NCBI GenBank assembly: GCA_005788585.1
Contig: SYBY01000254.1
Coordinates: 1 to 18,967, forward strand
DNA length: 18,967 bases
DNA from: Actinomycetota bacterium
GTDB taxonomy: Bacteria; Actinomycetota; Thermoleophilia; Solirubrobacterales; Solirubrobacteraceae
Direction: 5' to 3'
Part shown: positions 3,765 through 18,937 of the stretch, piece after piece
Layout of the letters: the number at the start of each line of letters is the position of its first letter
Position numbering within the stretch: position 1 is the stretch's first letter
The notes under the pieces: generated by a model
The model's input: the letters and a program-made list of their open reading frames with translations, nothing else
The model's database searches: none
What the model was told of the DNA's origin: nothing
Translations under genes and position numbers: made by a program

Positions 3765-4244
3765 TCAGCGCCGGAACATGCGCCCGACGGTGCCGAGCGT
3801 GTGCACGGCCACGGGCTCGACGGCGCCCGGGAGCGCCAGCCGGATCTCGTCGCGGTGGCGCATGAGGACGGCCGCCGCTGCGACGGGGTTGGCTCTCCGC
3901 CCGCCGACCTCGGCGAGATCACGGAAGAGCTCTTCGGTGCGCAGGGCGGGGGTGGTCGTCCAGGTCGCCCGCGCCAGTGCGGTGCTGGGGTTCCACATCC
4001 GGTGACGGGTGGCGACGGGGATGTCGAGCGTGTCGCCGGGGCTCAGGACGCGCATCGTCCCGTCGAGGTCGACCGTCAGCTCGCCCTCCAGCATCTGGAA
4101 GTGCTCGGCCTGATGCGGGTGCAGGTGCGGGGGCGGCGCTGGCGTTCCTGGCGACCACGTCGCGTCGAGGACGAGCTCCTCGGGGGTGGAGCGGACGACG
4201 GTCAGCACTTCTCCGCCGAAGTCGATCACGTCGGGAGCGGGCAC
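3765..4244 (-). CDS. Small single-domain cupin protein
   Basis: A 159-residue protein from the GTG at 4244. Cupin motif 1 is complete: H40-x-H42-x4-E47-x6-G54. Motif 2 follows as G70-x5-P76-x4-H81-x3-N85, with Ala in place of the usual Gly after the Pro. The metal ligands expected from the family (two His, a Glu, a third His) are all present, so a mononuclear metal site is likely, with iron, manganese or nickel possible. The second half (91-159) is mostly charged and helical. Cupins cover enzymes, sugar-binding and regulatory proteins, so the substrate cannot be told. A candidate iron-type operator lies upstream at 4302-4320, with a further TTAGGTTGG half-site at 4252-4260 (minus strand). It could head a transcript into the GGDEF gene 40 nt downstream. 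Confidence 0.85.
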   Translation of the reverse strand: MPAPDVIDFGGEVLTVVRSTPEELVLDATWSPGTPAPPPHLHPHQAEHFQMLEGELTVDLDGTMRVLSPGDTLDIPVATRHRMWNPSTALARATWTTTPALRTEELFRDLAEVGGRRANPVAAAAVLMRHRDEIRLALPGAVEPVAVHTLGTVGRMFRR

Positions 4245-4251
4245 CGTTGTG

Positions 4252-4320
4252 CCAACCTAACGCTTCGCGCCGGGCGGCATTCCCGACTCGCGAGGTATGT
4301 GTTAGGGTGACCTAACCCGA
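4252..4320. promoter_or_regulatory. Candidate DtxR/IdeR-type iron box between cupin and small ORF
   Basis: The perfect dyad TTAGG-GTGA-CCTAA lies at 4302-4315, and the 19-mer 4302-4320 matches the known DtxR/IdeR consensus TWAGGTWAGSCTWACCTWA at 14 of 19 positions by hand count. A second half-site, CCAACCTAA, lies at 4252-4260 beside the cupin start. The dyad stands between two divergent reading frames, 57 nt from the cupin GTG and immediately before the ATG at 4320, so a bound repressor could block both. Confidence 0.55.
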
Positions 4321-4505
4321 TGGATCCCTCAGCGCTCCCCACCGATGAGCAGGCGGACTTTCCCCGCACCGGCGTGCGCGCGCGCCGCTGGTACCGCTTC
4401 GAGCGCGACCTGCGCGAGTGGCTCGACACCCCCGAGGGACGGTTCGCCTCGTGGGACGCCGAGCGCGAGATCAGCGCGTCTTGCGCGCCGTCGCCCGCCG
4501 GGTGA
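4320..4505 (+). CDS. Possible small protein (61 aa) behind an iron-type box
   Basis: The ATG at 4320 opens a 61-codon frame. AGGGTGA (4304-4310) within the upstream dyad doubles as a fair Shine-Dalgarno, nine bases before the start, so the operator and ribosome site would overlap. The peptide is acidic at first (DPSALPTDEQADF), then aromatic and charged (RRWYRFERDLREW, 22-34), a likely amphipathic helix, with no signal peptide or known motif. The last 35 bases overlap, antisense, the end of the large secreted protein gene at 4471. The composition looks protein-like and the position at a regulated divergent promoter is suggestive, but I do not recognise the family. It could be a chance frame or a decayed remnant. 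Confidence 0.4.
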   Translation: MDPSALPTDEQADFPRTGVRARRWYRFERDLREWLDTPEGRFASWDAEREISASCAPSPAG

Positions 4506-7500
4506 CGCTCGTCCGCTGGTAGCGGTCGATGGTCGTCACCGTCGCGCTGCGCACGCCGTTGCGCTTGGTCGCGCCGGGGATCTTCAGCGATGACGACCTG
4601 GTGGTGCGCGCCACGGTCCGTCCGTCGCGCAGGACGGCCCGGACGAGATAGCGCCTGGCGCCCGTCACCTTCGCCCAGGACACGCGCACACCCCGGATCG
4701 TCGCCCGCCGCGGGGCGGCCGGACGCCATGTGGCGGCGGTGCGGTAGCGCGTGACCGTCTTCGGGGCGTTCGCCGGGCTCGGCTCGCCCACCGGGGTTGC
4801 GACGATCGTGCGCAGCCCGGCCGGTCCCGGCGGGGACGCGAACCGCAGGATACCGGCGCCGCGTCCGACCGTCTTCAGCGGGCGTTCGCCTGCCGACGAC
4901 CGCTCGGAGAGCTGCACCCGCGTGCCACTCGGCCCGGTCACCCGGTAGCGCAGGACGCGGCCGCTGCCACGGCGCTCGACCTTGCCCGTGACGCGGACGG
5001 GCTCGACGTCGCGGGAGATCGCCAGGCCGGTGATCGGCGGCGACCCGTCACGCGGGACGATCTGCCAGGTCCCCGCGGGCGGCTTCGTGAGGACGACGAC
5101 GGTCGCCTTGCCGGTCGGCACCGCCGAGACCACCGGGTCGCCGCCCGGGGCCTTGTAGCCCAGCGGCGTGATGCGTCGCCCGTCCGGCGCGATCACGTCG
5201 ACCAGCGGCGCGGCGCTCTCGCCCCGCACCAGCACGTTGGCCGTCTCCACGCCGCTGCCCAGCGTCACCGACTGCGGAGCGCCGGCCTGCGCGGGCCGGC
5301 CGACGGGCGGTGGCACCTGGTAGGCGGACATGTCGCACGTGTCGCCGAAGATCAGCTCGCCCGGGCCGCCCCACTTGTACCCGACGCCCGCGTAGCCGGG
5401 GGCGAAGGTGTCGGGCGGCGCGGGCACCGGGACGCGGATGCACCCGGCGACGCCCTTCGTCGAGAGCGTGCCCTTCGCGCCGGTGATCGGGATGCCGAAG
5501 ACGCGCGTCGAGGTGTCGAACGTGCCCGCGAACTGGGCGGACGGGCCGTCGACCCAGAACGACGCGCTGCCGTCGAGGCGCACCACCTCGAGATCGATGC
5601 CGAACTCCCCCTTGATCGAGGCGTACCCGTCGGTGGTCGCGAGCGCCGTGCCCGTGCCGACCTGGATGCCGAACAGCCGCTCGACGCCGTCGAAGCGGAA
5701 CTGGGCCCCGCCGTTGACGACGGTCAACGTCAGCCGTCCGTCGAGCTCCACGGCGAAGACGTCCGCGGGCGGAGGGGTGTAGATCGCGCCGAACGATGCG
5801 CCGACGCTGACGCTCAGCGGGTCAGGACTGAACGCCCCCGTGACGCCGAGGAAGTAGACCTTCGGGAACACCGTGATGCCCGGACGGGGGAAGCGCAGGT
5901 CGACCTCGCCGCGCTCGAACCGGCCGTCGACGAACGACACGCTGAGCTTCAGCGCGCCGAGCGGGAGCTTCAGCCCGGCTGTGCCGCTCCAGCGGTCGGC
6001 CGCGCCGTCGTAGCTCACCTTCAGGGCCTCGATCTCCAGCGGGCCGAGCGGGATGCGTCCCACCGAGAAGGCGAAGGACTGCAGGACGGCGCCGCGGCCC
6101 ATCTCGGCGCGGAGCGTCGCCGAGGCGCTGACGCCGCCGAGCGCCTTCGGGAGCTTCAGCGACACCGGGATGTTCACCCCGTTGCCGGCGATCTTGATGT
6201 CGAAGTCCGCGTCGACGGGGAAACCCTTGATGTCCGGGCCCTTGGGCAGCTTGACGCCCTTGAAGAGCGACTGCCCGGCGTTGGAGCCGAGCTGGACGTT
6301 GAGCTTCAGGTCGGCGAGCTCGATCTCGCCGATCGCCGGGCCCCGGAGCAGGATCTTCACCCGGCCGGTGGTGTTCAGCGTGCGCTTGCGCGGGTCGAAG
6401 ACGATCTTCGTCTCGCCGACCGGACGCAGGATCAGGCCGAGGAACTCGACCTCCCCGGTGGAGACCAGCGCGCCCGGGAACGCCGGGTCGTTGCTCTCGA
6501 GCAGGCAGCCGGCCAGCGGCGCGAGCTTGACGTCGGCGAACCCGGCCTCCTTGCAGCCGGCGAAGCCGCCGGGGATGCCGCTGCCTGCCAGCCCGCCCGC
6601 GCCGGCCTGGCCGGTGGGGGCCAGCGACCCGAACGCGCTGACGGCGATCTCCCCCGAGAACGTGCCGGTCGGGTTGCGCCGCTGGACGAGTACGCCGCCG
6701 CCATCGGCCGCGGCGCCGAGGTCGAGCTGGTCGATCGTGTCGGCCGCCGCCGCCTCGTAGCGGCGCCAGATGCCGCCGCCCGCGGGGCTGGAGGCGACCG
6801 AGACCCGTTGCGGCTGCTGTCCCTGGCTGAACGCGGCGTGCAGCGTGCCGCCGGGGTCCTGCGTGAAGGCGCGCGTCTGCGCGACGTCGCGTGGGCTGAT
6901 GACCGTCGGGGCGCCGGGGGCGCCGCCGGTGACGTTGCGGACGTTCCACGCGCCCTCGCGGGCGAGCAGGTAGGTCCCCGCCGGGCCGCCGGCCAGCCGG
7001 GGGAGGTCCCCGGGGACCTGCGCGCTGCTCCACGTCCCGGGGTCGTTGACGTTCCCGGCGCCGCTCCAGCGCCGCAGCGTGATCGGCCCGACCGGGCCCG
7101 AGAACGCGGCGACGATGCCCTCGCCCTCGGCGGCCACCGCGCCCTCGTAGAGGTCGGTCCCCGTGCTGAGCACGGCGCTCTGGGAGGTGAAGTTCCCCGC
7201 GTCGAGGACCTGCAGCAGGGTGCCGCCGGTGAACGCGCTGGTGATGACCGCGATGCGCGGGTTGGGGCCGCCGAGGAGCGTCGCGTCGCCGGATGGGAGG
7301 ACGGTGCCGACGATGCCCGGCCCGGTCCACGTCGTGCCGCCGTCGGACGACGTCCAGGCGTACGTCGTGCGGTCGCGATCCTCGCCGTCTGGATGGCGCA
7401 CGATCGACGGGTAGCGGTGACTGAGCACCACCAGCTGATTGCCGATCTGCGTGATCTTCGGCCCGGCGTCGTCGGACGCGTACGGCACCGAGATCGGCAT

Positions 7501-7908
7501 CGGCGTCGGGTTCGGGTTGTTGCAGGCCGTCGCGCCGCGGGGCAGGCGGCAGTAGTGCGTGACGTCGGGTGTCTCCCCGATCTGGTCCTCGTTCCACACG
7601 ATGTGCGACGTGCCGGCGGGGTCGACGTGGACGTCGGGCCAGATGCCGGCGCCGACGGAGACCGGCGCGGCGGGCGGCGCGGGTGCCTTGGTGCGGGGAA
7701 CGCGGGACGGCGGCTTGTAGCCCGGGGTGGCCAGCGCCCGCGGGCGCCGCTGGCTCGCGGACGCGGGGAGCTGCGCGGGTTCGCCGGCGTGGGGCAGGAC
7801 CAGGGACGCGCGATCGGGCAGCGTGGTCGCCGCGCTCGCGGGCGCGGGACCCGACCCGACCAGGGGGGCGAGAAGCGCGACGACGAACAGGACGCGGCGG
7901 CTGGACAC
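4471..7908 (-). CDS. Large secreted beta-rich protein with Asp-box propeller-like N-terminus, unknown function
   Basis: A 1145-residue protein starting at the GTG at 7908. The start gives a clean Sec signal peptide (basic MSSRR, hydrophobic VLFVVALLAPLVG, cleavage near PAPASA at 22-27) followed by a Pro/Ala-rich spacer (~60-85). Residues ~86-420 look like a sialidase-style beta-propeller: an Asp-box S187-x-D-x-G-x-T-W194 is present, as is the strand-like HIVWNED (102-108). The middle (~470-870) is Gly/Leu/Val-rich beta sequence without a family I recognise. The C-terminus (~900-1145) resembles Ig/FnIII-like modules and ends very basic (Lys/Arg/Thr). There is no sortase signal or terminal membrane segment, so it is secreted or held by its basic tail. 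Catalytic sialidase residues are not recognisable; ligand binding or adhesion is as likely. Confidence 0.82.
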   Translation of the reverse strand: MSSRRVLFVVALLAPLVGSGPAPASAATTLPDRASLVLPHAGEPAQLPASASQRRPRALATPGYKPPSRVPRTKAPAPPAAPVSVGAGIWPDVHVDPAGTSHIVWNEDQIGETPDVTHYCRLPRGATACNNPNPTPMPISVPYASDDAGPKITQIGNQLVVLSHRYPSIVRHPDGEDRDRTTYAWTSSDGGTTWTGPGIVGTVLPSGDATLLGGPNPRIAVITSAFTGGTLLQVLDAGNFTSQSAVLSTGTDLYEGAVAAEGEGIVAAFSGPVGPITLRRWSGAGNVNDPGTWSSAQVPGDLPRLAGGPAGTYLLAREGAWNVRNVTGGAPGAPTVISPRDVAQTRAFTQDPGGTLHAAFSQGQQPQRVSVASSPAGGGIWRRYEAAAADTIDQLDLGAAADGGGVLVQRRNPTGTFSGEIAVSAFGSLAPTGQAGAGGLAGSGIPGGFAGCKEAGFADVKLAPLAGCLLESNDPAFPGALVSTGEVEFLGLILRPVGETKIVFDPRKRTLNTTGRVKILLRGPAIGEIELADLKLNVQLGSNAGQSLFKGVKLPKGPDIKGFPVDADFDIKIAGNGVNIPVSLKLPKALGGVSASATLRAEMGRGAVLQSFAFSVGRIPLGPLEIEALKVSYDGAADRWSGTAGLKLPLGALKLSVSFVDGRFERGEVDLRFPRPGITVFPKVYFLGVTGAFSPDPLSVSVGASFGAIYTPPPADVFAVELDGRLTLTVVNGGAQFRFDGVERLFGIQVGTGTALATTDGYASIKGEFGIDLEVVRLDGSASFWVDGPSAQFAGTFDTSTRVFGIPITGAKGTLSTKGVAGCIRVPVPAPPDTFAPGYAGVGYKWGGPGELIFGDTCDMSAYQVPPPVGRPAQAGAPQSVTLGSGVETANVLVRGESAAPLVDVIAPDGRRITPLGYKAPGGDPVVSAVPTGKATVVVLTKPPAGTWQIVPRDGSPPITGLAISRDVEPVRVTGKVERRGSGRVLRYRVTGPSGTRVQLSERSSAGERPLKTVGRGAGILRFASPPGPAGLRTIVATPVGEPSPANAPKTVTRYRTAATWRPAAPRRATIRGVRVSWAKVTGARRYLVRAVLRDGRTVARTTRSSSLKIPGATKRNGVRSATVTTIDRYQRTSVTRRATARKTR

Positions 7909-7944
7909 GCCGGCCAGACCCTACTCCGTGTCCACCGATTCGTC

Positions 7945-7988
7945 GAGCGTCACATACTGGTCGCTGGAGCGACCACGATGTGACGCTC
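7945..7988. repeat. 44-bp near-perfect dyad (nested hairpin)
   Basis: Outer arms GAGCGTCACAT (7945-7955) and ATGTGACGCTC (7978-7988) are perfect 11-bp complements. Nested inside, GGTCGCT (7959-7965) and AGCGACC (7968-7974) pair as well. It lies 17 nt past the perR stop, on the strand where perR transcripts end, and 36 nt before the start of the large secreted protein gene. No T-run follows, so it could be a hairpin transcript end for perR or an operator for the secreted protein. Confidence 0.75.
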
Positions 7989-8005
7989 AGCCCAGTGGCG
8001 GGGGG

Positions 8006-8434
8006 CTACGAGCGAGCGCAGTCGCGGCACAGGCCGCGCACGGTGACCTGCGCGTGATCGGGCGTGAAGCCGGTGTCGCGCGCGGCGGTGAGCAGCGCGT
8101 CGGGCTGCACGGGCGCGTCGATGTCGGTGATGGCCCCGCACGCGCGGCACACGAGATGGTGGTGGTTTTCGGTGCGGGGATCGAAGACGACGGTGCCGCC
8201 CTCGGTCGCGACGCGGTGGACGAGTCCGAGCTCCTCGAGCAGGTCCAGCGTGGCGTACACGGTGGGGAGGGACACGCCCGGCATCTGGGCGCTCACCTCG
8301 CCGAACACCATCTCCGCGGTGGCGTGGCGGTTGAGCTGCTGCATGACGCGCGCGATGACCAGGCGCTGCGGGGTCACGCGCTGCCCGCGCTCGCGCAGTG
8401 CGCCGGCAAGCTGGGTTTCCATCGTCGCGTCCAC
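8006..8434 (-). CDS. perR: Fur-family metalloregulator of PerR type
   Basis: A 142-residue protein read from the GTG at 8434; an ATG four codons later is the alternative start. It has the N-terminal winged helix (RVTPQRLVIARVM, then LPTVYATLDLLEELGLV) and C-terminal dimer domain of the Fur family. From the GTG start the numbering reproduces that of Bacillus PerR: regulatory-site H37, D85, H91, H93 and D104, and structural zinc C96, C99, C136 and C139. The Asp at 104, where Fur proteins have Glu, is the residue associated with PerR-type peroxide sensing by histidine oxidation. It probably represses iron storage and oxidative-stress genes, and itself. It is divergent from the ferritin-like gene, sharing 111 nt of regulatory DNA. 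Fur, Zur or Nur function is not excluded. Confidence 0.92.
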   Translation of the reverse strand: MDATMETQLAGALRERGQRVTPQRLVIARVMQQLNRHATAEMVFGEVSAQMPGVSLPTVYATLDLLEELGLVHRVATEGGTVVFDPRTENHHHLVCRACGAITDIDAPVQPDALLTAARDTGFTPDHAQVTVRGLCRDCARS

Positions 8435-8449
8435 GGGAAGGATGTTAGC

Positions 8450-8492
8450 GCAACTGTGAGGCTACCCTAAGTCGCACGTTATTCTAAGTTGC
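8450..8492. promoter_or_regulatory. Divergent perR/ferritin control region with iron-type box and 17-bp-spaced repeats
   Basis: Three related 9-mers begin at exactly 17-bp intervals: GCAACTGTG at 8450 (plus strand), and GCGACTTAG and GCAACTTAG as complements of 8467-8475 and 8484-8492. Overlapping the first two, the complement of 8452-8470 reads TTAGGGTAGCCTCACAGTT, matching the degenerate DtxR/IdeR consensus at 14 of 19 positions. The site lies between the divergent starts, so binding could affect both genes. I could not fit a convincing Bacillus-type PerR box or a clear -35/-10 pair. Confidence 0.5.
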
Positions 8493-8530
8493 TTGTGATA
8501 GAGTGCAGGACCGACTCCGAAATCCCCAGC

Positions 8531-8537
8531 AGAGGAG
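8531..8537 (+). promoter_or_regulatory. Ribosome binding site deciding the ferritin start
   Basis: AGAGGAG ends eight bases before the GTG at 8546. It fixes that codon as the start in preference to an upstream in-frame start at 8489, which lies inside the operator repeats. Confidence 0.7.
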
Positions 8538-8545
8538 CTGCCACC

Positions 8546-9043
8546 GTGCCGACCACGCATCACGCCGCCGCAGGCATCCTGTCCGACGCCAACACCGAGA
8601 AGCGCGAGGAGATCGTCGATCTTCTGACCCGCGCGTACTGGATGGAGCTCGAGACGGTCATCAACTACCTCTCGATCTCCCAGCACCTCGACGGGATCCG
8701 CGCCGAGGAGATCGCGGCGGCGCTCGGCGAGGACGTCACCGAGGAGCTCGGGCACGCGAAGCTGTTCGCCGAGCGCATCAAGGACCTCTACGGCACGCCT
8801 CCCGGGTCGCTCGACTTTACCCCGGACATGAGCTACCTCCAGCCGTCCGACGACCCGACCGACGTGATCGGCGTCATCAAGGGCGTCATCCAGGCCGAGG
8901 CCGGCGCGATCGAGCACTACACGCGCATCATCGAGGCCACCGACGGTGTCGACTGGGCCACGCAGGACATGGTCATCGCGATTCTCCGCGACGAGGAGAA
9001 CCACATGCGCACCTTCGAGCGGTACCTGCGCGAGTTCGAGTAG
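8546..9043 (+). CDS. Ferritin-like diiron protein (iron storage)
   Basis: A 165-residue all-helical protein. Ferritin diiron ligands are recognisable in order: E34/E36 in YWMELE, the E67-x2-H70 pair in EELGH, E118 in IQAEAGAIEHY, and E150/E151 with H153 in DEENH. The length and four-helix spacing fit the bacterioferritin/ferritin superfamily. By family it would oxidise Fe(II) and store Fe(III) in a protein shell, limiting hydroxyl-radical chemistry. I cannot tell classical bacterioferritin (heme-binding) from another ferritin-like branch: there is no obvious interface heme methionine that I can place. It is divergent from the PerR-type regulator, a classic regulator/target arrangement, and the shared region also carries an iron-type box. 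A HAD phosphatase follows 38 nt downstream. Confidence 0.88.
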   Translation: MPTTHHAAAGILSDANTEKREEIVDLLTRAYWMELETVINYLSISQHLDGIRAEEIAAALGEDVTEELGHAKLFAERIKDLYGTPPGSLDFTPDMSYLQPSDDPTDVIGVIKGVIQAEAGAIEHYTRIIEATDGVDWATQDMVIAILRDEENHMRTFERYLREFE

Positions 9044-9081
9044 CGGTTTCGCACGTCGCGCCTGCGGCTACCGTGGGCGCG

Positions 9082-9891
9082 ATGCGCTGTCTGTACGTCG
9101 ACCTCGACGGGACCCTGCTCGGTCGCGGCGGGTCGCTGGTCCACGATGCCGACGGCAACCCGTCGCTGCTCTCGCTCCGCGCCGTCGAGGCGTGCCTGCG
9201 CGTGCAGGCCGAGGTCGTGCTCATGAGCGGCCGCCGCCAGGTCACGGTTCGTGAGCCCGCGCGCCTGCTGGGCCAGCCGTCCTACATCTTCGAGGCCGGC
9301 GGTGGCCTGGTTCTCGACGGCGAGACGTTCTGGCTGTGCGACGGCCTGGAGCCCGACGGCCGCACGATCGCCGAGCAGGTCTCCGCGGGCGGCGCGCCCG
9401 AGCTGCTGCTCGAGCGCTTCGCCGGCCGCCTGGAGTTCCACGCGCCCTGGCACGAGGGACGTGAGGTCTCGCACCTCTTCCGCGGCCGGGTGGACGCCGC
9501 CGAGGCCGACGCGCTCCTCGCGGCCGAGGGGCACGAGCAGTTGCGGCTGGTCGACAACGGCGCCATCCACGCGCGCGGGGTCAACCTCGATGTCGCCGAC
9601 GACGAGTTGCGCGCCTACCACCTCGTCCCGCGCGGGGTGAGCAAGGCCCGCGCGGTCGCCCGCCACCAGCGCGCCCGCGGCTATGCGCCCGAGGACTGCA
9701 TCGCGGTCGGCGACTCGCGCGAGGACCTCGCGGTCGCGCCGGTCGTGGGCGCCTTCTGGCTCGTGGCCAACGGCCTGGCGCAGGACCCGGGTATGACGGC
9801 GGGCGCGCCCGGCACCATCCACGTCGCCGAGGAGCGCAACGGCGCCGGCGTCTACGAAGCGGTGGTCTCGACCCTCGCACGCCGCGGATGA
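9082..9891 (+). CDS. HAD-superfamily phosphatase (type IIB-like)
   Basis: A 269-residue protein from the ATG at 9082; an in-frame GTG at 9073 is the alternative start. HAD motif I is DLDGT with nucleophile D7 and acid/base D9. Motif II is LMSGR with S49, motif III is K188, and motif IV is GDSRED with D211 and D215. The insert between motifs II and III (about 75-185) has the size of a C2-type cap, as in Cof-like, sucrose-phosphate and mannosyl-3-phosphoglycerate phosphatases. The substrate is probably a small phosphorylated sugar or similar, but cannot be named. The stop overlaps the start of the large LuxR regulator as ATGA, so the two are translated together. It lies 38 nt after the ferritin and could be on the same transcript. 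Confidence 0.88.
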   Translation: MRCLYVDLDGTLLGRGGSLVHDADGNPSLLSLRAVEACLRVQAEVVLMSGRRQVTVREPARLLGQPSYIFEAGGGLVLDGETFWLCDGLEPDGRTIAEQVSAGGAPELLLERFAGRLEFHAPWHEGREVSHLFRGRVDAAEADALLAAEGHEQLRLVDNGAIHARGVNLDVADDELRAYHLVPRGVSKARAVARHQRARGYAPEDCIAVGDSREDLAVAPVVGAFWLVANGLAQDPGMTAGAPGTIHVAEERNGAGVYEAVVSTLARRG

Positions 9892-12689: not shown

Positions 12690-12721
12690 CGAGCCGCACG
12701 GCGCAATCCCGTCCTGACGGA

Positions 12722-12754
12722 TAGGATTAGGCACCCCTAAGAAGGGGACCCTAA
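12722..12754 (+). promoter_or_regulatory. Candidate DtxR/IdeR-type iron box controlling the heme operon
   Basis: TTAGG-CACC-CCTAA (12727-12740) is the same dyad, with the same 4-bp spacer, as that at 4302-4315. A further CCTAA follows at 12750-12754, exactly 14 bp after the first. The 19-mer 12722-12740 matches the DtxR/IdeR consensus at about 13 of 19 positions. The ribosome site GAAGGGG (12741-12747) lies between the two CCTAA elements and could also pair with CCCC at 12734-12737. Binding here would be expected to shut off the heme operon when iron is plentiful. Confidence 0.6.
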
Positions 12755-12761
12755 CGCGCTG

Positions 12762-14003
12762 ATGTCCCGCCGCTCTCCCATTGCCTGGCTTTCCGGTGCC
12801 GCCCTCGTAGGCGGCCTCGTCATGGTTCCCGCCGCGCCCGCCGGCGCCGCGAGCAGTTCCCAGGGCACGGTGACGGTGACCGCGTCGGGCGCCGCGGGCA
12901 AAGCGCTGCGCCGGGCGGGCGTCCGGCTGCAGGCGCCGAGGGTCGCCGCGCTCGTTGACGGCAGTGCCCGCCTGACGTTCACCGTCACCTCGCGCGCGGT
13001 CCGCGGTGCGGAGGCGACCCTGCCGCTGCGCGGCGACCTGCGCTTCACCCGGCGGGGGCGGACCGTCCGGTACGCGTCACTGCGCGCGACGGTGCGTAGC
13101 GGGACGGTGCGCATCACCGGCCGCGTGGCGGGCCGCGGCCCGCGTACCACGGTCCTCTCCGGACAGCCGCGCCAGAACGCCATGACGCTCGACCGCACGC
13201 GCCGCGCTGTCGCCGTCCGCGCCACCACCCTGTCGCTCTCCGCGGCGACCACGCGCCGGCTGCGGGTCGCGCTGCGGCTCTCGCGCACCCCGGCAGGCAC
13301 CCTGGGCGCGGTCACCGTCGCCGCGGGCCTGCAGCCGGCGGGCGGCACCAGCGGCGGCGGGACGACGACGGGCACGGGCACCGGCGGCGGTACCACCACC
13401 GGGACGCCGACGGTCCAGCCGGCGACGACCGAGCCGCCGGCGCTCGCACGGACCGCGAACGCCACCGACATCGTCGGCGCCACCGTCGTCTGGCGCGTGC
13501 GGGAGTCGTTCATCCGCTACGTCAACACCGGGGAGGGGACGAGCGTGCGCGACGGCGCGACCGCCGACCCGGCGGAGAACCTCCCCGATGCGGGCGTCCC
13601 GCTGGTCTACCAGTTCCGCTTCCCGTTCCGCGCGGGCTGGGGCGACCCGACGAACGGTGCGGCCGCGGTCACGTTCTCCGGCGGAGTGCGTTTCCGCTAT
13701 GTCCAGCACACCATCGACTTCACCACCGCCGATCCCGAGATCGAGCTCAACGGCGACAACTCGCGCGCGATCTTCCGCCTGACCGGCGTCGACGGCACGG
13801 CGTTCACCGGCAAGCGCACCGTGCTGCTCGACCTCAAGCCGTCCGCGGCGGCGTCGCGGACGGTCAGCCCCGACGGGAAGACCGTGACGTACGAGCGCAT
13901 CCCCGCGTCCGTCCCCGCGGGCACCGGCGACTCCGTGTTCGCCGGCTTCTACCTCGCCGGCCAGCCGTTCGGCTGGGTCTCCATCACCTACACCCTCGCC
14001 TGA
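12762..14003 (+). CDS. Secreted HtaA-domain heme-binding protein
   Basis: A 413-residue protein with a Sec signal peptide (MSRRSPIAWL, hydrophobic 11-22, cleavage near PAGA at 26-29). Residues ~35-188 form a basic beta-rich domain, possibly a degenerate HtaA repeat. A Gly/Thr-rich linker (~194-216) follows, then an HtaA domain at ~237-413. Its signature positions are visible: W244, the SFIRY block with Y253, TFSGGVRF (304-311), H316, DPEI (324-327) and GFY with Y397. In Corynebacterium HtaA, conserved Tyr and His residues bind hemin; Y253 and H316 fall where these are expected. The corynebacterial protein has a C-terminal membrane anchor; this one ends without one, so it is secreted or wall-associated. 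It heads the hmuTUV operon, 8 nt before hmuT, and is the likely first receptor for heme. Confidence 0.85.
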   Translation: MSRRSPIAWLSGAALVGGLVMVPAAPAGAASSSQGTVTVTASGAAGKALRRAGVRLQAPRVAALVDGSARLTFTVTSRAVRGAEATLPLRGDLRFTRRGRTVRYASLRATVRSGTVRITGRVAGRGPRTTVLSGQPRQNAMTLDRTRRAVAVRATTLSLSAATTRRLRVALRLSRTPAGTLGAVTVAAGLQPAGGTSGGGTTTGTGTGGGTTTGTPTVQPATTEPPALARTANATDIVGATVVWRVRESFIRYVNTGEGTSVRDGATADPAENLPDAGVPLVYQFRFPFRAGWGDPTNGAAAVTFSGGVRFRYVQHTIDFTTADPEIELNGDNSRAIFRLTGVDGTAFTGKRTVLLDLKPSAAASRTVSPDGKTVTYERIPASVPAGTGDSVFAGFYLAGQPFGWVSITYTLA

Positions 14004-14011
14004 ACCTCCTC

Positions 14012-14875
14012 ATGTCCCGAACCCGCACCCTCCTCGCCGCCCTGCTCGCGACCGTCGTCGCGCTCACCGCCGCCACCCCCGCGACCGCCGCCTACAAGCG
14101 CGTCGCGGCGCTGACGCCCTTCACCGCGAACGCGATGGCGCAGATGGGCGTCAAGCCCGTCGCGCGCGGTGAGCTCCTCGGCGGCGTCGACCAGGTCGAC
14201 CCGCTCCTGCGCGGCGTCCGCGTGCTGAAGCTCTCGCACCCCAACGGCGCGAACCTCGAGCAGCTCGCGCAGCTCAACCCGCAGCTGGTCCTCACGACGC
14301 CGACGTTCCGCAAGGGCGCCGCCGGCATGAAGCGGCTCGGCATGCGGGTCGTCGAGAGCGACCCGACGAGCGTTGCCGCCGTGCCGAGGGAATTCGTGCG
14401 CGTCGGCAAGCTCATCGGCCGCGAGCGCCAGGCGCGTACGCTGGCCAACGCGCAGGTGCGCAGGATCAACGCGGTCAAGCGCAAGGCCAAGCGCAGCCCG
14501 ACGGTCCTCGTGATCCTCGGCGTGGGCCGCACCCCGTACGCGTTCCTGGCGAACTCGTGGGGCGGCGACCTCGTGCGCCACGCGGGTGGCCGCCTGCTGA
14601 CCCGCGGCCTGTCGGGCAGCGGCGGTTTCGCGCGCATCAGCAACGAGGTCGTCGTGCAGCGCAACCCCGACATCATCATCGCGGTGCCGCACAGCGAGAC
14701 GAAGAACATCCCGGCGATGGCGCGCTACCTGAAGTCGAATCCCGCGTGGAGGAAGACCAAGGCGATGCGCAGCGGACGCGTGTACGTGTCGACGGGCAAC
14801 TCGTTCCTGCAGGCGTGGACCGACGTCGACCGCGTGATCGCCGACGTCCAGACGAAGTACCTGACGAACCGGTAG
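14012..14875 (+). CDS. hmuT: Heme/siderophore ABC transporter substrate-binding protein (HmuT-like)
   Basis: A 287-residue periplasmic-binding-protein fold of the FecB/BtuF class (Peripla_BP_2). The signal peptide covers about 1-26 (hydrophobic core 7-20, ATPATA before cleavage). The mature start YKRVAAL leads into the first lobe. NLEQLAQLNPQLVL (about 79-92) is the familiar block of this family, and the second lobe includes ISNEVVVQRNPDIIIAV and VYVSTGNSF near the end. No lipobox and no cysteine are present anywhere, although Gram-positive members are normally lipoproteins. Transport specificity is inferred from the HtaA-domain partner 8 nt upstream and the permease 4 nt downstream, as in the corynebacterial hmuTUV-htaA set. 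A siderophore or cobalamin substrate remains possible. Confidence 0.85.
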   Translation: MSRTRTLLAALLATVVALTAATPATAAYKRVAALTPFTANAMAQMGVKPVARGELLGGVDQVDPLLRGVRVLKLSHPNGANLEQLAQLNPQLVLTTPTFRKGAAGMKRLGMRVVESDPTSVAAVPREFVRVGKLIGRERQARTLANAQVRRINAVKRKAKRSPTVLVILGVGRTPYAFLANSWGGDLVRHAGGRLLTRGLSGSGGFARISNEVVVQRNPDIIIAVPHSETKNIPAMARYLKSNPAWRKTKAMRSGRVYVSTGNSFLQAWTDVDRVIADVQTKYLTNR

Positions 14876-14879
14876 CACC

Positions 14880-15920
14880 ATGGCCGTGGCCAGCCCTCCC
14901 GTCGCCCCGCCCCGCCCGGCGCGCCCCGCCCGCGTGCTCGTGCGCCAGGCGGCAGTGCTGGTGGTCGCGGCGGTGGCGCTGGTCGCATCGATCGCCGCGT
15001 CGATGAGTCTCGGCGCGGTCGACGTCCCGCTCGGTCAGGTCATCGACGCGCTGCGCGGCACCGCCGACGAGGGGCCGCTGAAGGAGATCGTCCTGCAGCT
15101 GCGGCTGCCGCGGACGGTCAGCGCGATCTTCGTCGGCGCCGGTCTGGGCGTCGCGGGCGCGCTGCTGCAGGGCGCGCTGGCCAACCCGCTCGCGTCGCCC
15201 GACGTGATCGGCGTGACCGGGGGCTCGGCGTTCGGGGCGATGCTCGTGCTGCTGGCGTTCCCCAACTCGATCGCGCTGCTGCCGGTCGGTGCGCTGGTGT
15301 TCGGCCTCATCGCCGCGGCGATCGTGTTCGGCATCGCGTGGACCGGCGCGAACCGCGGCGGGATCCAGCGGGTCATCCTCGCCGGCATCGCGATCAGCGC
15401 GCTGTTCGGTGCGGGAACCATGACCCTCATGACCGCGTACCCCGACCGCGTCCAGTCCGCGATCTTCTGGATGGCGGGCGGCATCACGACCACCGGGTGG
15501 GAGGACATGGGCGCGGTGTGGCCGTACTTCGCGGCGGGCTTCGCGCTGACGCTGGCGATGCCGCGCGCGCTGGACCGTCTCGCGCTCGGTGACGACGTCG
15601 CGGCGTCGCTGGGCTCGCGACCGGCGCTGATCCGCCTCGGGGCGGGCCTGGCGGCCGCGCTGCTCGCGGCGTCAGCCGCGGCGATCGCGGGGCTGCTGAC
15701 CTTCATCGGGCTCGTGATCCCGCACCTCGTCCGGATGGCGGGCGGCACGTCGCGGCACGGCTTCGTGATCCCCGCGTCGGCCATCGCGGGCGCTGCGCTG
15801 CTGGTCACGGGCGACACGCTCGCGCGTGTGGTGCTGGCACCGCGCGAGCTGCCCGTCGGTCCATTCATGGTGGTGCTCGGCGTGCCGCTCTTCCTCTGGC
15901 TGCTGCGCCGCGCGACATGA
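14880..15920 (+). CDS. hmuU: FecCD-type ABC permease (HmuU-like)
   Basis: A 346-residue integral membrane protein of the FecCD/BtuC family (iron, heme and cobalamin importers), normal length with about ten membrane segments; the first is near 23-45. Family blocks visible are LRLPRTVSAIFVGAGLGVAG (75-94), LLQGALANPLASPDVIG (95-111), LALGDDVAASLG (234-245), the likely contact with the ATPase, GLVIPHLVRMAGG (277-289), and ELPVGPFMVVLGVPLFLWLL at the end. An extra Pro/Arg-rich N-terminal stretch (1-20) precedes the first helix. The ATG sits 4 nt after the hmuT stop, and the stop overlaps the ATPase start as ATGA, so the three transporter genes are a tight operon. Confidence 0.93.
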   Translation: MAVASPPVAPPRPARPARVLVRQAAVLVVAAVALVASIAASMSLGAVDVPLGQVIDALRGTADEGPLKEIVLQLRLPRTVSAIFVGAGLGVAGALLQGALANPLASPDVIGVTGGSAFGAMLVLLAFPNSIALLPVGALVFGLIAAAIVFGIAWTGANRGGIQRVILAGIAISALFGAGTMTLMTAYPDRVQSAIFWMAGGITTTGWEDMGAVWPYFAAGFALTLAMPRALDRLALGDDVAASLGSRPALIRLGAGLAAALLAASAAAIAGLLTFIGLVIPHLVRMAGGTSRHGFVIPASAIAGAALLVTGDTLARVVLAPRELPVGPFMVVLGVPLFLWLLRRAT

Positions 15921-16744
15921 GCGAGCCGATCCTCGCCGCGCGCGACGTGCGGGTGTCGATCGGCGGGAACTCGATCCTCCACGGAGCCGACCTGGCGGTG
16001 TCCGCGGGCGAACTCGTGGCGGTCGTCGGGCCCAACGGCGCCGGGAAGTCGACGCTGGCTCGCGCCGCGGCGGGGCTCCAGTCGCTGGCCGGCGGCTCGG
16101 TGACCTGGTACGGCGAGGACGTCGGGAAGCTGCGCGGCCGGCGCCTGGCGCGCACCCGCGCCTACGTCCCGCAGCGCGCCCGGGTGCCGGACGGCGTGAC
16201 GGTGCTCGAGGCGGTCCGCATCGGCCGCTCGCCGCACCTGCGCCCGCTCCAGCGCCTGGTGGCCGCCGACCACGAGGCGGTCGCGCGGGCGATGGACCGC
16301 GCCGGCGTCGCGGACTTCGCCGGCCGTCAGCTCTCGACCCTGTCGGGCGGTGAGCTGCAGCGCGTGCAGATCGCGGTCGGCCTCGCGCAGGAGACGCCCG
16401 TCCTCATGGCCGACGAGCCGACGAGCGCGCTGGACCTCGGCGCCACCGCCGGCCTCGCGCGCTTGCTGCGCGACCTCGTCGAGCACCACGACCTCGCCGT
16501 CGTCCTCGTCGTGCATGACCTCGCGCTGGCCGCGGCGGTCGCGGACACCGTCGTCGTGGTCTCCGGCGGCCGGACGGTCGCGGCCGGCCCGCCCGTGGAC
16601 GTCCTCACGCGCGAGCGCCTGTCCGAGGTCTGGCACGTCGACGCCGCGCTGGAAGAGGTCGCAGGCCGCACCGCGCTCCACGTCGATTGGCTGTGCGAAG
16701 CCTCGCCGTGCGAAGCCTCGCCTGGCGGCTCGGCGTCGCACTGA
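15917..16744 (+). CDS. hmuV: ABC transporter ATP-binding protein (HmuV-like)
   Basis: A 275-residue ATPase with all motifs: Walker A GPNGAGKST (38-46), Q-loop Q86, signature LSGGELQR (142-149), Walker B VLMADE (162-167) with catalytic E167, D-loop SALD, and switch His H200. It drives the HmuU permease and belongs with FecE/HmuV-type import ATPases. The C-terminal tail (from about 258) is unusual: a 15-bp tandem duplication adds a repeated CEASP motif before GGSASH. This tail probably lies outside the conserved domain and is not expected to affect catalysis. The gene starts within the permease stop (ATGA) and ends directly in a hairpin. Confidence 0.93.
   Translation: MSEPILAARDVRVSIGGNSILHGADLAVSAGELVAVVGPNGAGKSTLARAAAGLQSLAGGSVTWYGEDVGKLRGRRLARTRAYVPQRARVPDGVTVLEAVRIGRSPHLRPLQRLVAADHEAVARAMDRAGVADFAGRQLSTLSGGELQRVQIAVGLAQETPVLMADEPTSALDLGATAGLARLLRDLVEHHDLAVVLVVHDLALAAAVADTVVVVSGGRTVAAGPPVDVLTRERLSEVWHVDAALEEVAGRTALHVDWLCEASPCEASPGGSASH
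16693..16722 (+). repeat. 15-bp tandem duplication in the 3' end of hmuV
   Basis: GTGCGAAGCCTCGCC occurs twice head to tail (16693-16707, 16708-16722), identical in all 15 bases. It is in frame and adds five residues to the tail. Confidence 0.9.
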
Positions 16745-16769
16745 GAGAACTCGCTGCGCTCCTTCTCTC
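16743..16769 (+). terminator. Hairpin at the end of the heme operon
   Basis: GAGAGAA (16743-16749) and TTCTCTC (16763-16769) are perfect 7-bp complements around a 13-nt loop, and the stem begins inside the hmuV stop codon. No T-run follows, so it may be a factor-assisted end, an mRNA 3' stabiliser or a dispersed repeat. Confidence 0.45.
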
Positions 16770-16795
16770 GGCGTTTGGCATCGGCCGAGGCCGCT

Positions 16796-16869
16796 GAACG
16801 TCGAAATGTGGTGGTTCCCGGCGTCGAGCGTCGAGATGTGGTGGCAGGCGCGACCAGATTTCGACGTTC
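16796..16869. repeat. Three-copy repeat upstream of the TetR gene (two direct, one inverted)
   Basis: Copy 1 is GAACGTCGAAATGTGGTGG (16796-16814). Copy 2, CGTCGAGATGTGGTGG, starts at 16829, exactly 30 bp after the matching CGTCG of copy 1. Copy 3 is inverted: the complement of 16851-16869 matches copy 1 in 17 of 19 bases. Copies 2 and 3 form an inverted repeat with 17-bp arms (14 matches) and a 4-bp spacer (16846-16849). The array ends 36 nt before the TetR start. It could be the TetR operator or a dispersed genomic repeat. Confidence 0.8.
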
Positions 16870-16892
16870 GATCCTGGCGCGGGTCGTCGCTC

Positions 16893-16907
16893 TACACTTC
16901 CGGGGTG
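16893..16907 (+). promoter_or_regulatory. Possible -10 box for a leaderless TetR transcript
   Basis: TACACT (16893-16898) lies six bases before the GTG at 16905, and no Shine-Dalgarno precedes that start. The spacing would put transcription at or very near the start codon, as in leaderless actinobacterial mRNAs. No good -35 is seen, so this is tentative. Confidence 0.3.
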
Positions 16908-17489
16908 CCTCGGATCGATGCCGACACCGTCGCGGAGCACCGCGAGCAGCAGCACGTCGCCCTCCTCGATGCCGCCGAGGCGCTTCTCCTCGACGACGGA
17001 TTCGAGGCGCTGACGTTCCGCGCGCTGGGCGAGCGGACGGGGCTGGCGCGCAACTCTGTGTACCGCTACTTCTCCTCGCGCGACGACATCGTCGCCCAGG
17101 TTTGCGAGCGTGATCTGCCGTACTGGCTGCAGGAGCTGCGCGACGCGATGGCCGTCGCGGAGAACGTCGACGACACCGTCACGGCGTTCGTGGGCGGGCA
17201 GCTGCGGCTGGTCGCCACGGGGCACCACCGGCTCGCCGAGGCGCTCGGCGACGCGCCGCTCGGTCCCGAGGCGCGGTCGCGGATCGGCGCGATCGCCTAT
17301 AAGCCGGCCGAGGTCCTCGAGGAGCGCCTGCGCGAGCTCGGCCACCCGCGCGCGGAAATGACCGCCCAGCACGTCCAGGGCCTCGTCAACACGGGCGTCC
17401 GCATGCTGCATCGCAAGCAGGCGGACCTGCAGACGGTCATCGACGAGACCACGCGCAGCGCGCGGCTCGTCGCGCGCGCCGACATCTGA
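16905..17489 (+). CDS. TetR-family transcriptional regulator
   Basis: A 194-residue protein from the GTG at 16905. The open frame extends much further upstream, but that stretch is out of frame with hmuV and runs through the repeat array, so the extension is not real. The N-terminal TetR helix-turn-helix is clear: HVALLDAAEALLLDDGFEAL (17-36), then TFRALGERTGLARNSVYRYF (37-56) and SSRDDIVAQV. The C-terminal helical part (~70-194), which would bind the inducer and form the dimer, shows no recognisable subfamily. The upstream inverted and direct repeats are natural candidates for its operator. It follows the heme operon by 160 nt on the same strand, so control of that operon or of itself is possible but not shown. 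Confidence 0.92.
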   Translation: MPRIDADTVAEHREQQHVALLDAAEALLLDDGFEALTFRALGERTGLARNSVYRYFSSRDDIVAQVCERDLPYWLQELRDAMAVAENVDDTVTAFVGGQLRLVATGHHRLAEALGDAPLGPEARSRIGAIAYKPAEVLEERLRELGHPRAEMTAQHVQGLVNTGVRMLHRKQADLQTVIDETTRSARLVARADI

Positions 17490-17532
17490 GCGCCGCCGCG
17501 CCAGGCCCGGCACGGCGATTTGCCATCATCAG

Positions 17533-17558
17533 TCAGCCGGTTCCGAACGAAAGGCTGA
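17533..17558 (+). promoter_or_regulatory. 5' hairpin overlapping the SIMPL ribosome site
   Basis: TCAGCC (17533-17538) and GGCTGA (17553-17558) can pair over a 14-nt loop. The Shine-Dalgarno-like AAAGG (17550-17554) is partly inside the right arm, eight bases before the GTG at 17563. Folding could hide the ribosome site. The stem is short, so this is tentative. Confidence 0.3.
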
Positions 17559-17562
17559 TCCC

Positions 17563-18060
17563 GTGCATACACGTCGACTCCTGCTGGCGGCTGCCATCGG
17601 CTCGCTCGCTCTCCCCATAGCAGCGCATGCCCAAGCGCCAGCCCAGCTCACGGTGGAAGCCTTCGGTACCGGCTCCGCGAAGGTCGAGCCCCGCGATCGC
17701 ACCGACAACGCCTCCATCGTCGCAGCCGTCGACCGCGCGGAACAGGCGGCGCTGCCACTGGCCATCAATGACGCGCGTGCGCACGCAGCCGAGCTGGCAC
17801 CGCCCGTCGGTTTTACGCTGGGCCCGTTGATCTCCGTGAGCAATGCGTCGCAGACCGGCCCGTTCGTCGTCGGCCCCTGGGGCCAGGACGGCACGTTCGG
17901 GCCCGGTCGCTACTGCGGCACGGTCCGCATCCCTCGCTACAAGACCGTGGACGGCAAGCGCCGCCGTATCGGCTTCCGCAGCGAGCGCCGCTGTCGTGTG
18001 CCGGAGTCCGCCCAGCGCACGGTGAAGCTCACCTTCGTCGCCACCCAGCCGGTGGCCTGA
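17563..18060 (+). CDS. Short secreted SIMPL-domain-like (DUF541) protein
   Basis: A 165-residue protein from the GTG at 17563. The signal peptide is clear (MHTRR, hydrophobic LLLAAAIGSLALPIAA, AHAQA near 21-25). The mature part reads LTVEAFGTGSAKVEPRDRTD and continues with INDARAHAAELAPPVGFTLG and PLISVSN, which resembles the SIMPL/DUF541 pattern. It is shorter than usual SIMPL proteins (commonly above 200 residues) because one strand/helix unit seems absent. A loop with two cysteines (GRYCGTVRI and SERRCRVP) rich in Arg/Lys probably forms a disulfide in the exported protein. SIMPL proteins are envelope proteins of poorly known function. The gene is convergent with the HugZ-like gene, with only 3 nt between the stops. 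Confidence 0.75.
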   Translation: MHTRRLLLAAAIGSLALPIAAHAQAPAQLTVEAFGTGSAKVEPRDRTDNASIVAAVDRAEQAALPLAINDARAHAAELAPPVGFTLGPLISVSNASQTGPFVVGPWGQDGTFGPGRYCGTVRIPRYKTVDGKRRRIGFRSERRCRVPESAQRTVKLTFVATQPVA

Positions 18061-18063
18061 CGA

Positions 18064-18888
18064 TCAGCCGCGCGCCCGCTTGGCCAAGTCCACCGTTGCC
18101 GCCCGCAGCCCGTTCGGCTCCGTGCACGGCTCGGTGAACGTGATCCGCACGTCCGGCGCGGTGCCGCGCGGCGTGCGGATCTTCAGGTCCAGCCCGTAGC
18201 GGTCGGCGCGTACGCAGATCGCCTCGGAGGCGTCGGTGAAGCCGCCGAGCACGCGCGCCATCTCCAGCAGCGCGTCGCTGTGGTCCTCGTTGAGGTGGCT
18301 GATCGCGTACGCGGCGTTCGGCGCGACCGGGTCCGGCTCGGCGGCGAGATACTCGGCGGCGTTCGTCGAGTCCATCCGCCCGTAGCCACCGACCCAGCGC
18401 ACGCGCTCGACCTCGAGCACGAACAGGGAGAAGTCCCCGAAGTCGATGTAGATCTCCGCGGACGGCACCGCCGCGAGATGCGCGGCGCGTGCCGCGGCCA
18501 GGCGGTCACCCTCGGGGCGCACGACGCGGCCCGCGAGGGTCACCCGGCCATGGTCGAGGGGGTCGCCGGCGCGGGCCTGTTCGGCGACGACGAGCGACGC
18601 ACGCGCGTCGCCCTCGAGGTTGCGCGTGTGCTCCGCCAGGCGCGAGACGAGGAACACGGGCGCGCCGTCGTCCAGCACGCCGTAGGAGACGAGCGAGCCC
18701 CACGGGTCTCCCTCGCGGGTCAGCGTGGAGAGCGTGCCGAGGATCGAGCCCTGCACCAGCGTGCGGGCGTGCTCGGCGGGAGTCCGGCGACGGGCGGCGT
18801 CGCCTGCGGGGGTGGCGAGAGGGCCGGGGACCTCGAAGATCTCGGAGGGGGCGTCGTGGTCGGTCGGCACGGTGGCGACGTCGGTCAT
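18064..18888 (-). CDS. HugZ-type heme-related protein: FMN-binding split barrel plus DUF2470
   Basis: A 274-residue protein. I chose the ATG at 18888 because the longer start at 18939 would place coding sequence over the palindrome upstream. Residues ~36-170 form a pyridoxamine-phosphate-oxidase-like split barrel: PAEHARTLVQGSILGTLSTL (38-57), PWGSLVSYGV (62-71), FLVSRLAEHTRNLEGDARAS (79-98), and IYIDFGDFSLFVLEVERVRW (146-165) ahead of VGGYGRM. Residues ~190-270 match DUF2470, with the typical ISHLNEDHSDALLEMAR block (H198, H203). Proteins with this pairing include HugZ heme oxygenases and the plant heme-binding glutamyl-tRNA reductase partner. Heme degradation or heme sensing is likely given the nearby heme importer. 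No Shine-Dalgarno is seen, so the mRNA may be leaderless. Confidence 0.85.
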   Translation of the reverse strand: MTDVATVPTDHDAPSEIFEVPGPLATPAGDAARRRTPAEHARTLVQGSILGTLSTLTREGDPWGSLVSYGVLDDGAPVFLVSRLAEHTRNLEGDARASLVVAEQARAGDPLDHGRVTLAGRVVRPEGDRLAAARAAHLAAVPSAEIYIDFGDFSLFVLEVERVRWVGGYGRMDSTNAAEYLAAEPDPVAPNAAYAISHLNEDHSDALLEMARVLGGFTDASEAICVRADRYGLDLKIRTPRGTAPDVRITFTEPCTEPNGLRAATVDLAKRARG

Positions 18889-18893
18889 GCGGA

Positions 18894-18937
18894 GAAGGTT
18901 AGCGACACCTGTCGGTAAACGTCGCGACGGGTGTCGC
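18894..18937. promoter_or_regulatory. Palindromic control region upstream of the HugZ-like gene
   Basis: GCGACACCTGTCG (18902-18914) and CGACGGGTGTCGC (18925-18937) form an inverted repeat with 12 of 13 matching pairs and a 10-bp spacer. Overlapping it, the complement of 18894-18912 reads ACAGGTGTCGCTAACCTTC, about 13 of 19 matches to the DtxR/IdeR box, with a near-complete right half. The site begins only 6 nt before the start codon of the HugZ-like gene. Confidence 0.5.

Follow-up and report, generated by a model that had tools for sequence, protein, structure and literature searches.

In the window, by which is meant the whole 18,967-nucleotide stretch of contig SYBY01000254.1, three promoter regions share a 14-bp core, TTAGG-N4-CCTAA. 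These boxes 1-3 look like genuine binding sites of an iron regulator, as predicted from the sequence, and are most likely the operators of a metal-loaded DtxR/IdeR-family dimer that would read the 14-bp core, whereas the HugZ-like gene (hugZ) appears to stand apart, under TetR-linked control. Beyond the window, the same box looks like an element used genome-wide in this bacterial family at iron/heme uptake genes. A preliminary description of this DNA had placed four boxes of the known 19-bp DtxR/IdeR type in front of a cupin and a small open reading frame (ORF), a perR/ferritin pair, htaA-hmuTUV and hugZ, and had assigned all of these to one iron response. The source of the window is a Svornostia-like member of the Solirubrobacterales. 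Its GC content is 73%, the nearest of the genomes compared is G001, with 64% of the window's sampled words in common, and the three congeners (G001, G002 and G003) keep the window gene order, with gaps.

Within the window, besides boxes 1 and 3 (exact) and box 2 (one mismatch), the core is matched with two mismatches at 4247 and 12741; these five matches at up to two mismatches compare with 0.47 expected, and five were reached in 0 of 200 shuffles. A spacer of 6 nt was rejected as an alternative form of the box, being at chance level (8 seen versus 9.3 expected). The core of box 1 is exact in the three congeners, in the form GTTAGG-N4-CCTAA in G001 and G003, and ATTAGGC-N3-CCTAA is common to all three upstream of htaA; box 2, TGAGGCTACCCTAA, is kept in G001 and G002. 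By the strict 19-mer TTAGGTTAGGCTAACCTAA, the highest scores in the window fall at 4302 and 4297 (14/19), 8452 (13) and 12722 (13), followed by 18894 and 4242 with 12 each, and no other site exceeds 11; under a degenerate consensus that admits W/S, boxes 1-3 score 14 and 18894 scores 13, in a tie with 4242 and 18018. The announced four TTAGG/CCTAA boxes with 13-14 matching positions each are therefore recovered for boxes 1-3, at the places given, but not for the fourth, at hugZ (18894), which reaches 13 only under the lenient consensus and then ties with two other places, whose region has three mismatches in its closest core match and in which a palindrome pair is conserved instead. The absence of such elements elsewhere was nearly right, the extra TTAGG or CCTAA pentamers at 4256 and 12750 falling within the promoter regions of boxes 1 and 3. 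As to the 19-bp consensus, half sites of the DtxR/IdeR class are indeed present, but the core is 14 bp long and the 19-bp box TTAGGTTAGSCTAACCTAA has no match at up to three mismatches in G001-G003.

The genome-wide counts come from relatives of the window's organism, namely the three congeners and 146 family genomes, related genomes being non-independent samples, and the main control is the core pattern read backwards (the reversed pattern). The exact core occurs seven, five and nine times in G001, G002 and G003, respectively, and the backward pattern in none of them. Across the family, 492 exact boxes face 37 backward-pattern matches, so that a genome-wide scan, of the kind proposed in the preliminary description, finds the box far commoner than the control pattern. 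Boxes outnumber controls in 118 genomes, are fewer in six and equal in 22; at least one exact box is present in 132 genomes and at least three in 58, a number that the control pattern reaches in a single genome. By hand assignment, 11 of the 21 congener sites belong to iron/heme uptake units (FTR1 operons, FecCD/periplasmic-binding systems, a Suc_Fer-like/ABC unit and htaA), one site so counted being flanked by an HtaA gene on one side and, on the other, by a gene truncated by the contig end. The other ten stand at the small ORF (three), at ribosomal protein S4 without a Cys4 motif (three), at a ~215-aa family alone (two) or at unclear targets (two). In the same line, 26 hmuT loci taken from titled records, among which L087 and L088 are a single strain, hold 40 exact and 30 one-mismatch boxes, where six control patterns reach 0-1 and 0-3, respectively. 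In 21 of these loci a box with at most one mismatch lies no more than 400 nt upstream of hmuT or htaA, the reversed control in none. This enrichment over controls in genus and family, at iron/heme uptake genes, supports the proposed DtxR/IdeR-class iron regulon.

The geometry of the box was read from 78 distinct exact sites, a non-random sample in that the loci were partly chosen for their genes. A second module (at most two mismatches) is found exactly 14 bp off in 18 of these sites and 20 bp off in five, and at 5 bp, the distance that characterises the overlapping 19-bp box, in none of the 78; an inner tetranucleotide of the IdeR type is present in one. The boxes often end a few nucleotides upstream of the start codon, which fits the reported overlap of the box with the start site or the -10 region in IdeR-repressed genes (PMC10317159). 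This is also the expected place of a -10 element, and TTAGG-N4-CCTAA could in principle be mainly a promoter element of leaderless genes, with an unusual -10 region, and no operator. Such an explanation is hardly credible, given that the core is a palindrome with the tandem partner just mentioned, that each congener genome has no more than 5-9 exact sites, roughly half of them at iron/heme uptake units, and that none of 16 Cys4-type S4 genes carries it.

An operator of this length has a described counterpart. IdeR is reported to bind four CCTAA repeats as two dimers, a single dimer being able to occupy a half site; in the same source, one dimer of Saccharopolyspora erythraea IdeR sits on a half site of the nuo promoter, given as the first reported one-dimer case, for which the consensus TTAGGNNNNCCTAA is proposed and the function left 'to be investigated' (PMC8464063). 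The core found here is identical to that 14-bp consensus. With the actinobacterial IdeR/DtxR regulon it has in common the CCTAA half sites, the iron/heme uptake targets, the place at the gene start and the IdeR-like protein in the genome (120/146 family genomes), but the box is a 14-bp single-dimer box instead of a 19-bp two-dimer box, and its second modules stand at 14 bp and none at 5 bp. A site proposed from one promoter (PMC8464063) thus looks like the normal operator, and the usual form, of a whole family, whereby the role of one-dimer sites becomes testable. In the open literature, a search for Thermoleophilia, DtxR and iron led only to a paper on an acidic pit lake, subscription literature and preprints being outside the search.

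Four DtxR-family types are read in the genus, one of which matches DtxR/IdeR best in the PDB (~4e-28). This IdeR-like protein, present in G001-G003 and in the 120 family genomes mentioned above (E <= 1e-40; two copies in five), has a recognition helix, SAPTVHEM, that is nearly invariant across the genera compared, g11 excepted, and is likely the regulator of the boxes. Box and protein appear to co-vary across genera g11 and g19, which, with few genera, is suggestive only. The gene lies ~13 kb (G002) and ~14 kb (G003) past the hugZ promoter, and on another contig in the draft G001, so the earlier statement that there is no local DtxR/IdeR gene holds within the window but not for its surroundings in these two congeners. 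Under ample iron, the metal-loaded dimer would occupy the promoter or gene start and repress, whereas under iron scarcity htaA-hmuTUV and the small ORF would be released, and more tentatively perR and dps; the modules may stand in tandem in 14-bp steps. From sequence alone we infer the binding, the repression, the metal, the TetR ligand and the choice among the DtxR-family proteins. Autoregulation of the DtxR-family genes was considered and set aside, their starts showing no convincing box and one weak two-mismatch match (L079).

The boxes might instead be read by the PerR-like, Fur-family protein encoded at 8006-8434, whose gene adjoins box 2 and is missing, together with this box, from the G003 locus. 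This is very unlikely, since G003, whose lack of the gene refers to this locus only, keeps boxes 1 and 3 and nine exact sites genome-wide. Besides, Fur-family boxes are AT-rich with an odd centre, whereas this box is even-centred. Finally, CCTAA is the very half site that IdeR monomers are reported to bind (PMC8464063).

As regards hugZ, the conserved element of its promoter in G002 and G003 is a palindrome pair, CGACANNTGTCG, composed of CGACA-NN-TGTCG with a copy 22 bp away, the first palindrome being found in a one-mismatch form in Solirubrobacter loci. G002, G003 and G014 each contain the strict pair once, at hugZ, and it was not found in G001, whose contig stops before hugZ. In 25 loci with a hugZ promoter (the window and 24 others, with at most one mismatch per element), the pair is present in 8/8 loci with tetR and 0/17 without, and the iron box in 1/8 and 13/17, respectively, the presence of tetR being judged at these 25 loci only; hugZ of L095 carries both elements. 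The supposed fourth box thus probably belongs to another, neighbouring regulator, and hugZ drops out of the genes ascribed to a DtxR/IdeR-like box. The TetR domain and the co-occurrence of the gene with the palindrome pair make the TetR-family protein a candidate regulator of hugZ: in the Svornostia-like genus and in Solirubrobacter, it probably binds the two palindromes near the hugZ start, with a ligand that may be heme. The tetR gene is found after hmuV in Svornostia and near hugZ in Solirubrobacter, and the locus alignment reveals no conserved operator in the hmuV-tetR intergenic region. Most simply, this pattern reflects a rewiring of hugZ control between lineages, in which case the operator of a heme-breakdown gene varies among relatives in step with whether a TetR gene is present.

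That a degenerate DtxR-type box at 18894 controls hugZ after all is unlikely, although this place has 12/19 strict and 13/19 degenerate consensus matches, the GTTAGC adjoining the palindrome is largely conserved, and most hugZ genes without tetR (13/17) have a real iron box. The core mismatches at hugZ amount to three or four in the window, L080 and L081, the conserved bases of the promoter track the CGACANNTGTCG pair, and the single strict pair of G002 and of G003 is located precisely at hugZ. The HugZ-like protein itself contains PF13883, PF01243 and PF10615 and scores 35.5 bits with the HugZ equivalog model, below its cut-off of 240. A repeated stretch like GTCGARATGTGGTGG was also noticed 5' of tetR (16800-16860), which is not conserved in L080 and L081. 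The htaA-hmuTUV unit resembles corynebacterial hmuTUV-htaA heme uptake in joining an HtaA-domain protein and an ABC transporter in one unit, but differs in that a TetR gene follows and that hugZ has its separate operator-like pair.

The membership of the small ORF in the iron-box regulon, as anticipated, is supported by its homologues. A database search with this ORF gave 16 matches, its own sequence included, and homologues were found in 26 of the 146 family genomes, the match in G074 being weak. From -250 to +30 nt around their estimated starts, the box is exact in 13, present with at most one mismatch in 17 and with at most two in 24 of the 26, whereas the reversed pattern (at most one mismatch) is found near none. 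The cupin, however, has no such support as a member: it is absent at this locus in G003, which keeps the box and the small ORF, so that the box is tied to the small ORF only. A helical model was obtained for the small protein, and a fold search with it returned nothing at E <= 0.001. In other genera, the small ORF lies just 5' of a Dps-like gene: of the 30 best-scoring Dps-like loci, 20 have it on the same strand at a distance below 800 nt. A box (at most one mismatch) is found before the Dps-like gene within 500 nt in 17 and within 130 nt in 9 of the 30, the reversed control in none; these 30 are the loci with DNA among 66 places, L181 offering only 8 nt upstream. The two genes are separated by 3.5-4 kb in Svornostia, and their proximity elsewhere links boxes 1 and 2. 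In genus g19 (L134, L137, L139-L142), the small ORF is preceded by tandem boxes altered to a TTCGGG type, and some g19 genomes carry a second IdeR-like copy.

Regarding the genes on either side of box 2, the 'ferritin' is Dps-like, the nearest solved chains including the Dps-like proteins 7stw and 2clb. The PerR-like protein was aligned to B. subtilis PerR (2fe3, ranked second after 3eyy), in which alignment the PerR-type metal residues were judged present, and its best NCBIfam PerR model scores 90.4 bits, below the cut-off of 180.

Several observations weigh against the view of boxes 1-3 as iron operators and of hugZ as TetR-linked. The genome-wide figures rest on relatives and not on the window's own genome; 14 of the 146 family genomes have no exact box; and five of the 26 hmuT loci lack a box before hmuT or htaA, four of which have one on the hugZ side. 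The box proposed for perR/ferritin, kept in two congeners as said, has one mismatch and is absent from G003, which also lacks perR there. It is, moreover, unusual to repress a storage-type Dps gene at high iron; the S. solfataricus dpsl gene is reported as raised under iron depletion and by peroxide (PMC2739297). On the side of hugZ, four of the 17 promoters without tetR carry neither element, and, L087 and L088 being one strain, the tetR count comes down to seven independent loci in two genera. As for the regulator, 16 further IdeR-like copies have no better match at their own starts than one with three mismatches, and, unlike IdeR, the IdeR-like protein has Glu at the positions aligned to Met10 and Cys102, ligands that confer iron selectivity, a pair of Glu also found in these 16 copies save for a single Gln, Asp or Ala in g11/g19 copies. 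MntR proteins are described with Asp/Asn and Glu at these two positions (PMC10317159), which makes the metal of the IdeR-like protein uncertain. The boxes could serve a manganese-type regulator of DtxR-family types a or b, both present in the genus, or respond to manganese, in keeping with the Glu at the Cys102 position. The best matches of type a are 5zr4 ('metal-dependent transcriptional regulator') and 8pvt ('iron dependent repressor, putative'), which we take to be manganese regulators, type b being grouped with type a by sequence likeness only. Nevertheless, manganese is unlikely to be the signal, as the box-associated genes are those of iron/heme uptake (FTR1, FecCD, HtaA) and none of the 21 congener sites was assigned to an NRAMP-type gene; an iron-responsive IdeR-like dimer remains the preferred reader of the boxes.

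The box is also associated with one of two types of ribosomal protein S4. Two S4 hits were obtained in each of 15 genomes, in all 14 copies lacking the Cys4 motif and 16 Cys4 copies (two in G049). A box (at most one mismatch, no more than 200 nt upstream of the S4 domain) stands before 12 of the 14 copies that lack the motif, being exact in 11, and before none of the 16 Cys4 copies; the two motif-lacking copies that have no box are those of G071 and G156. G161, whose two hits are pieces of one copy, was left out of this set, and the box count leaves out the S4 hits of G087, G094 and G161 and of genomes with a single Cys4-type hit. Where an S4 without the Cys4 motif was the only one found in the genome, the box is present in 2 of 22, both drafts (65% and 77% complete), and the reversed control is absent at all S4 copies. 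The box-bearing loci are L113-L117, L224, L226, L230, L232, L234, L238 and L242. A Thermus uS4 has been reported with an Fe4S4 cluster (PMC10450194), while an older paper speaks of zinc in Thermus S4 and reports S4 paralogues to be without Zur sites (PMC3087516). There is about an even chance that, at low iron, the regulator of the box releases the S4 form lacking the Cys4 motif, and that this form takes the place of the Cys4-type S4 in an iron-sparing ribosome switch. This arrangement would resemble the Zur-controlled C+/C- ribosomal protein swaps in having a spare copy without the Cys motif beside a metal-type box, but here the box is of iron type and the protein is S4, for which the survey just cited gives no Zur sites. 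In C. diphtheriae, rpsD is reported only within a large predicted secY operon (PMC524172) and is thus not counted as a precedent. An iron-controlled S4 paralogue was not found among the matches listed, as judged from titles and the starts of abstracts, subscription literature and preprints being outside the search. The association offers, for this family, a testable answer to the question of 2009 as to what regulates the Cys-less S4 paralogues devoid of Zur sites (PMC3087516), and, if true, the S4 exchange would be a saving of iron at the ribosome.

The ~215-aa family stands directly 3' of boxes at L060:3007-3660, L062:3019-3666 and L063:7910-8557, and proteins resembling it come after the box-bearing S4 gene. 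In two scanned members, a single Pfam match was obtained (Transglut_core2), weak and below cut-off. The boxes of the small ORF, the ~215-aa family and S4 share, ~20 nt to their 5' side, a stretch like ATTCCCGAC that is perhaps a common promoter element (window 4270-4301, L059-L062, L065, L069).

Table 1. Features of the window discussed in the text (positions in the 18,967-nucleotide stretch).
Feature	Position	Strand	Remarks
Cupin	3765..4244	-	PF07883; divergent from small ORF; start possibly 4229
Iron box 1 (predicted), TTAGGGTGACCTAA	4302..4315		exact; 4 nt from small-ORF ATG
61-aa small ORF	4320..4505	+	conserved family
Fur-family regulator, PerR-like	8006..8434	-	PF01475; start 22 nt from box 2
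Iron box 2 (predicted), TGAGGCTACCCTAA	8457..8470		1 mismatch; between perR and Dps-like gene
Dps-like / bacterioferritin-like gene	8546..9043	+	PF00210
Iron box 3 (predicted), TTAGGCACCCCTAA	12727..12740		exact; before htaA; exact in G001, G002, G003
Degenerate second module, GAAGGGGACCCTAA	12741..12754		2 mismatches; adjoins box 3, 14-bp step
htaA	12762..14003	+	PF04213 above cut-off; secreted heme-binding domain protein; start possibly 12822
hmuT	14012..14875	+	PF01497; substrate-binding protein; top NCBIfam model IsdE, below cut-off
hmuU	14880..15920	+	PF01032 FecCD; permease
hmuV	15917..16744	+	PF00005; ATPase; second NCBIfam match heme ABC ATPase, below cut-off
TetR-family gene	16884..17489	+	PF00440; start 16884 or 16905; candidate hugZ regulator
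HugZ-like gene	18064..18888	-	PPOX-type barrel + DUF2470; likely ATG 18888 by coding score
hugZ palindrome 1, CGACACCTGTCG	18903..18914		exact; overlaps the supposed fourth box
hugZ palindrome 2, CGACGGGTGTCG	18925..18936		1 mismatch; 22 bp from palindrome 1

Scans of the window with Rfam (gathering threshold) and for tRNA gave no match. The record CAMCUD010000026.1 (L081), titled as a Bifidobacterium breve metagenome-assembled genome, holds a Svornostia-like locus with hmuT placed as in G003, and its title looks wrong. At the other end of the window, 494-2773 encodes a helicase with an MrfA zinc-binding domain (PF09369), likely involved in DNA repair.

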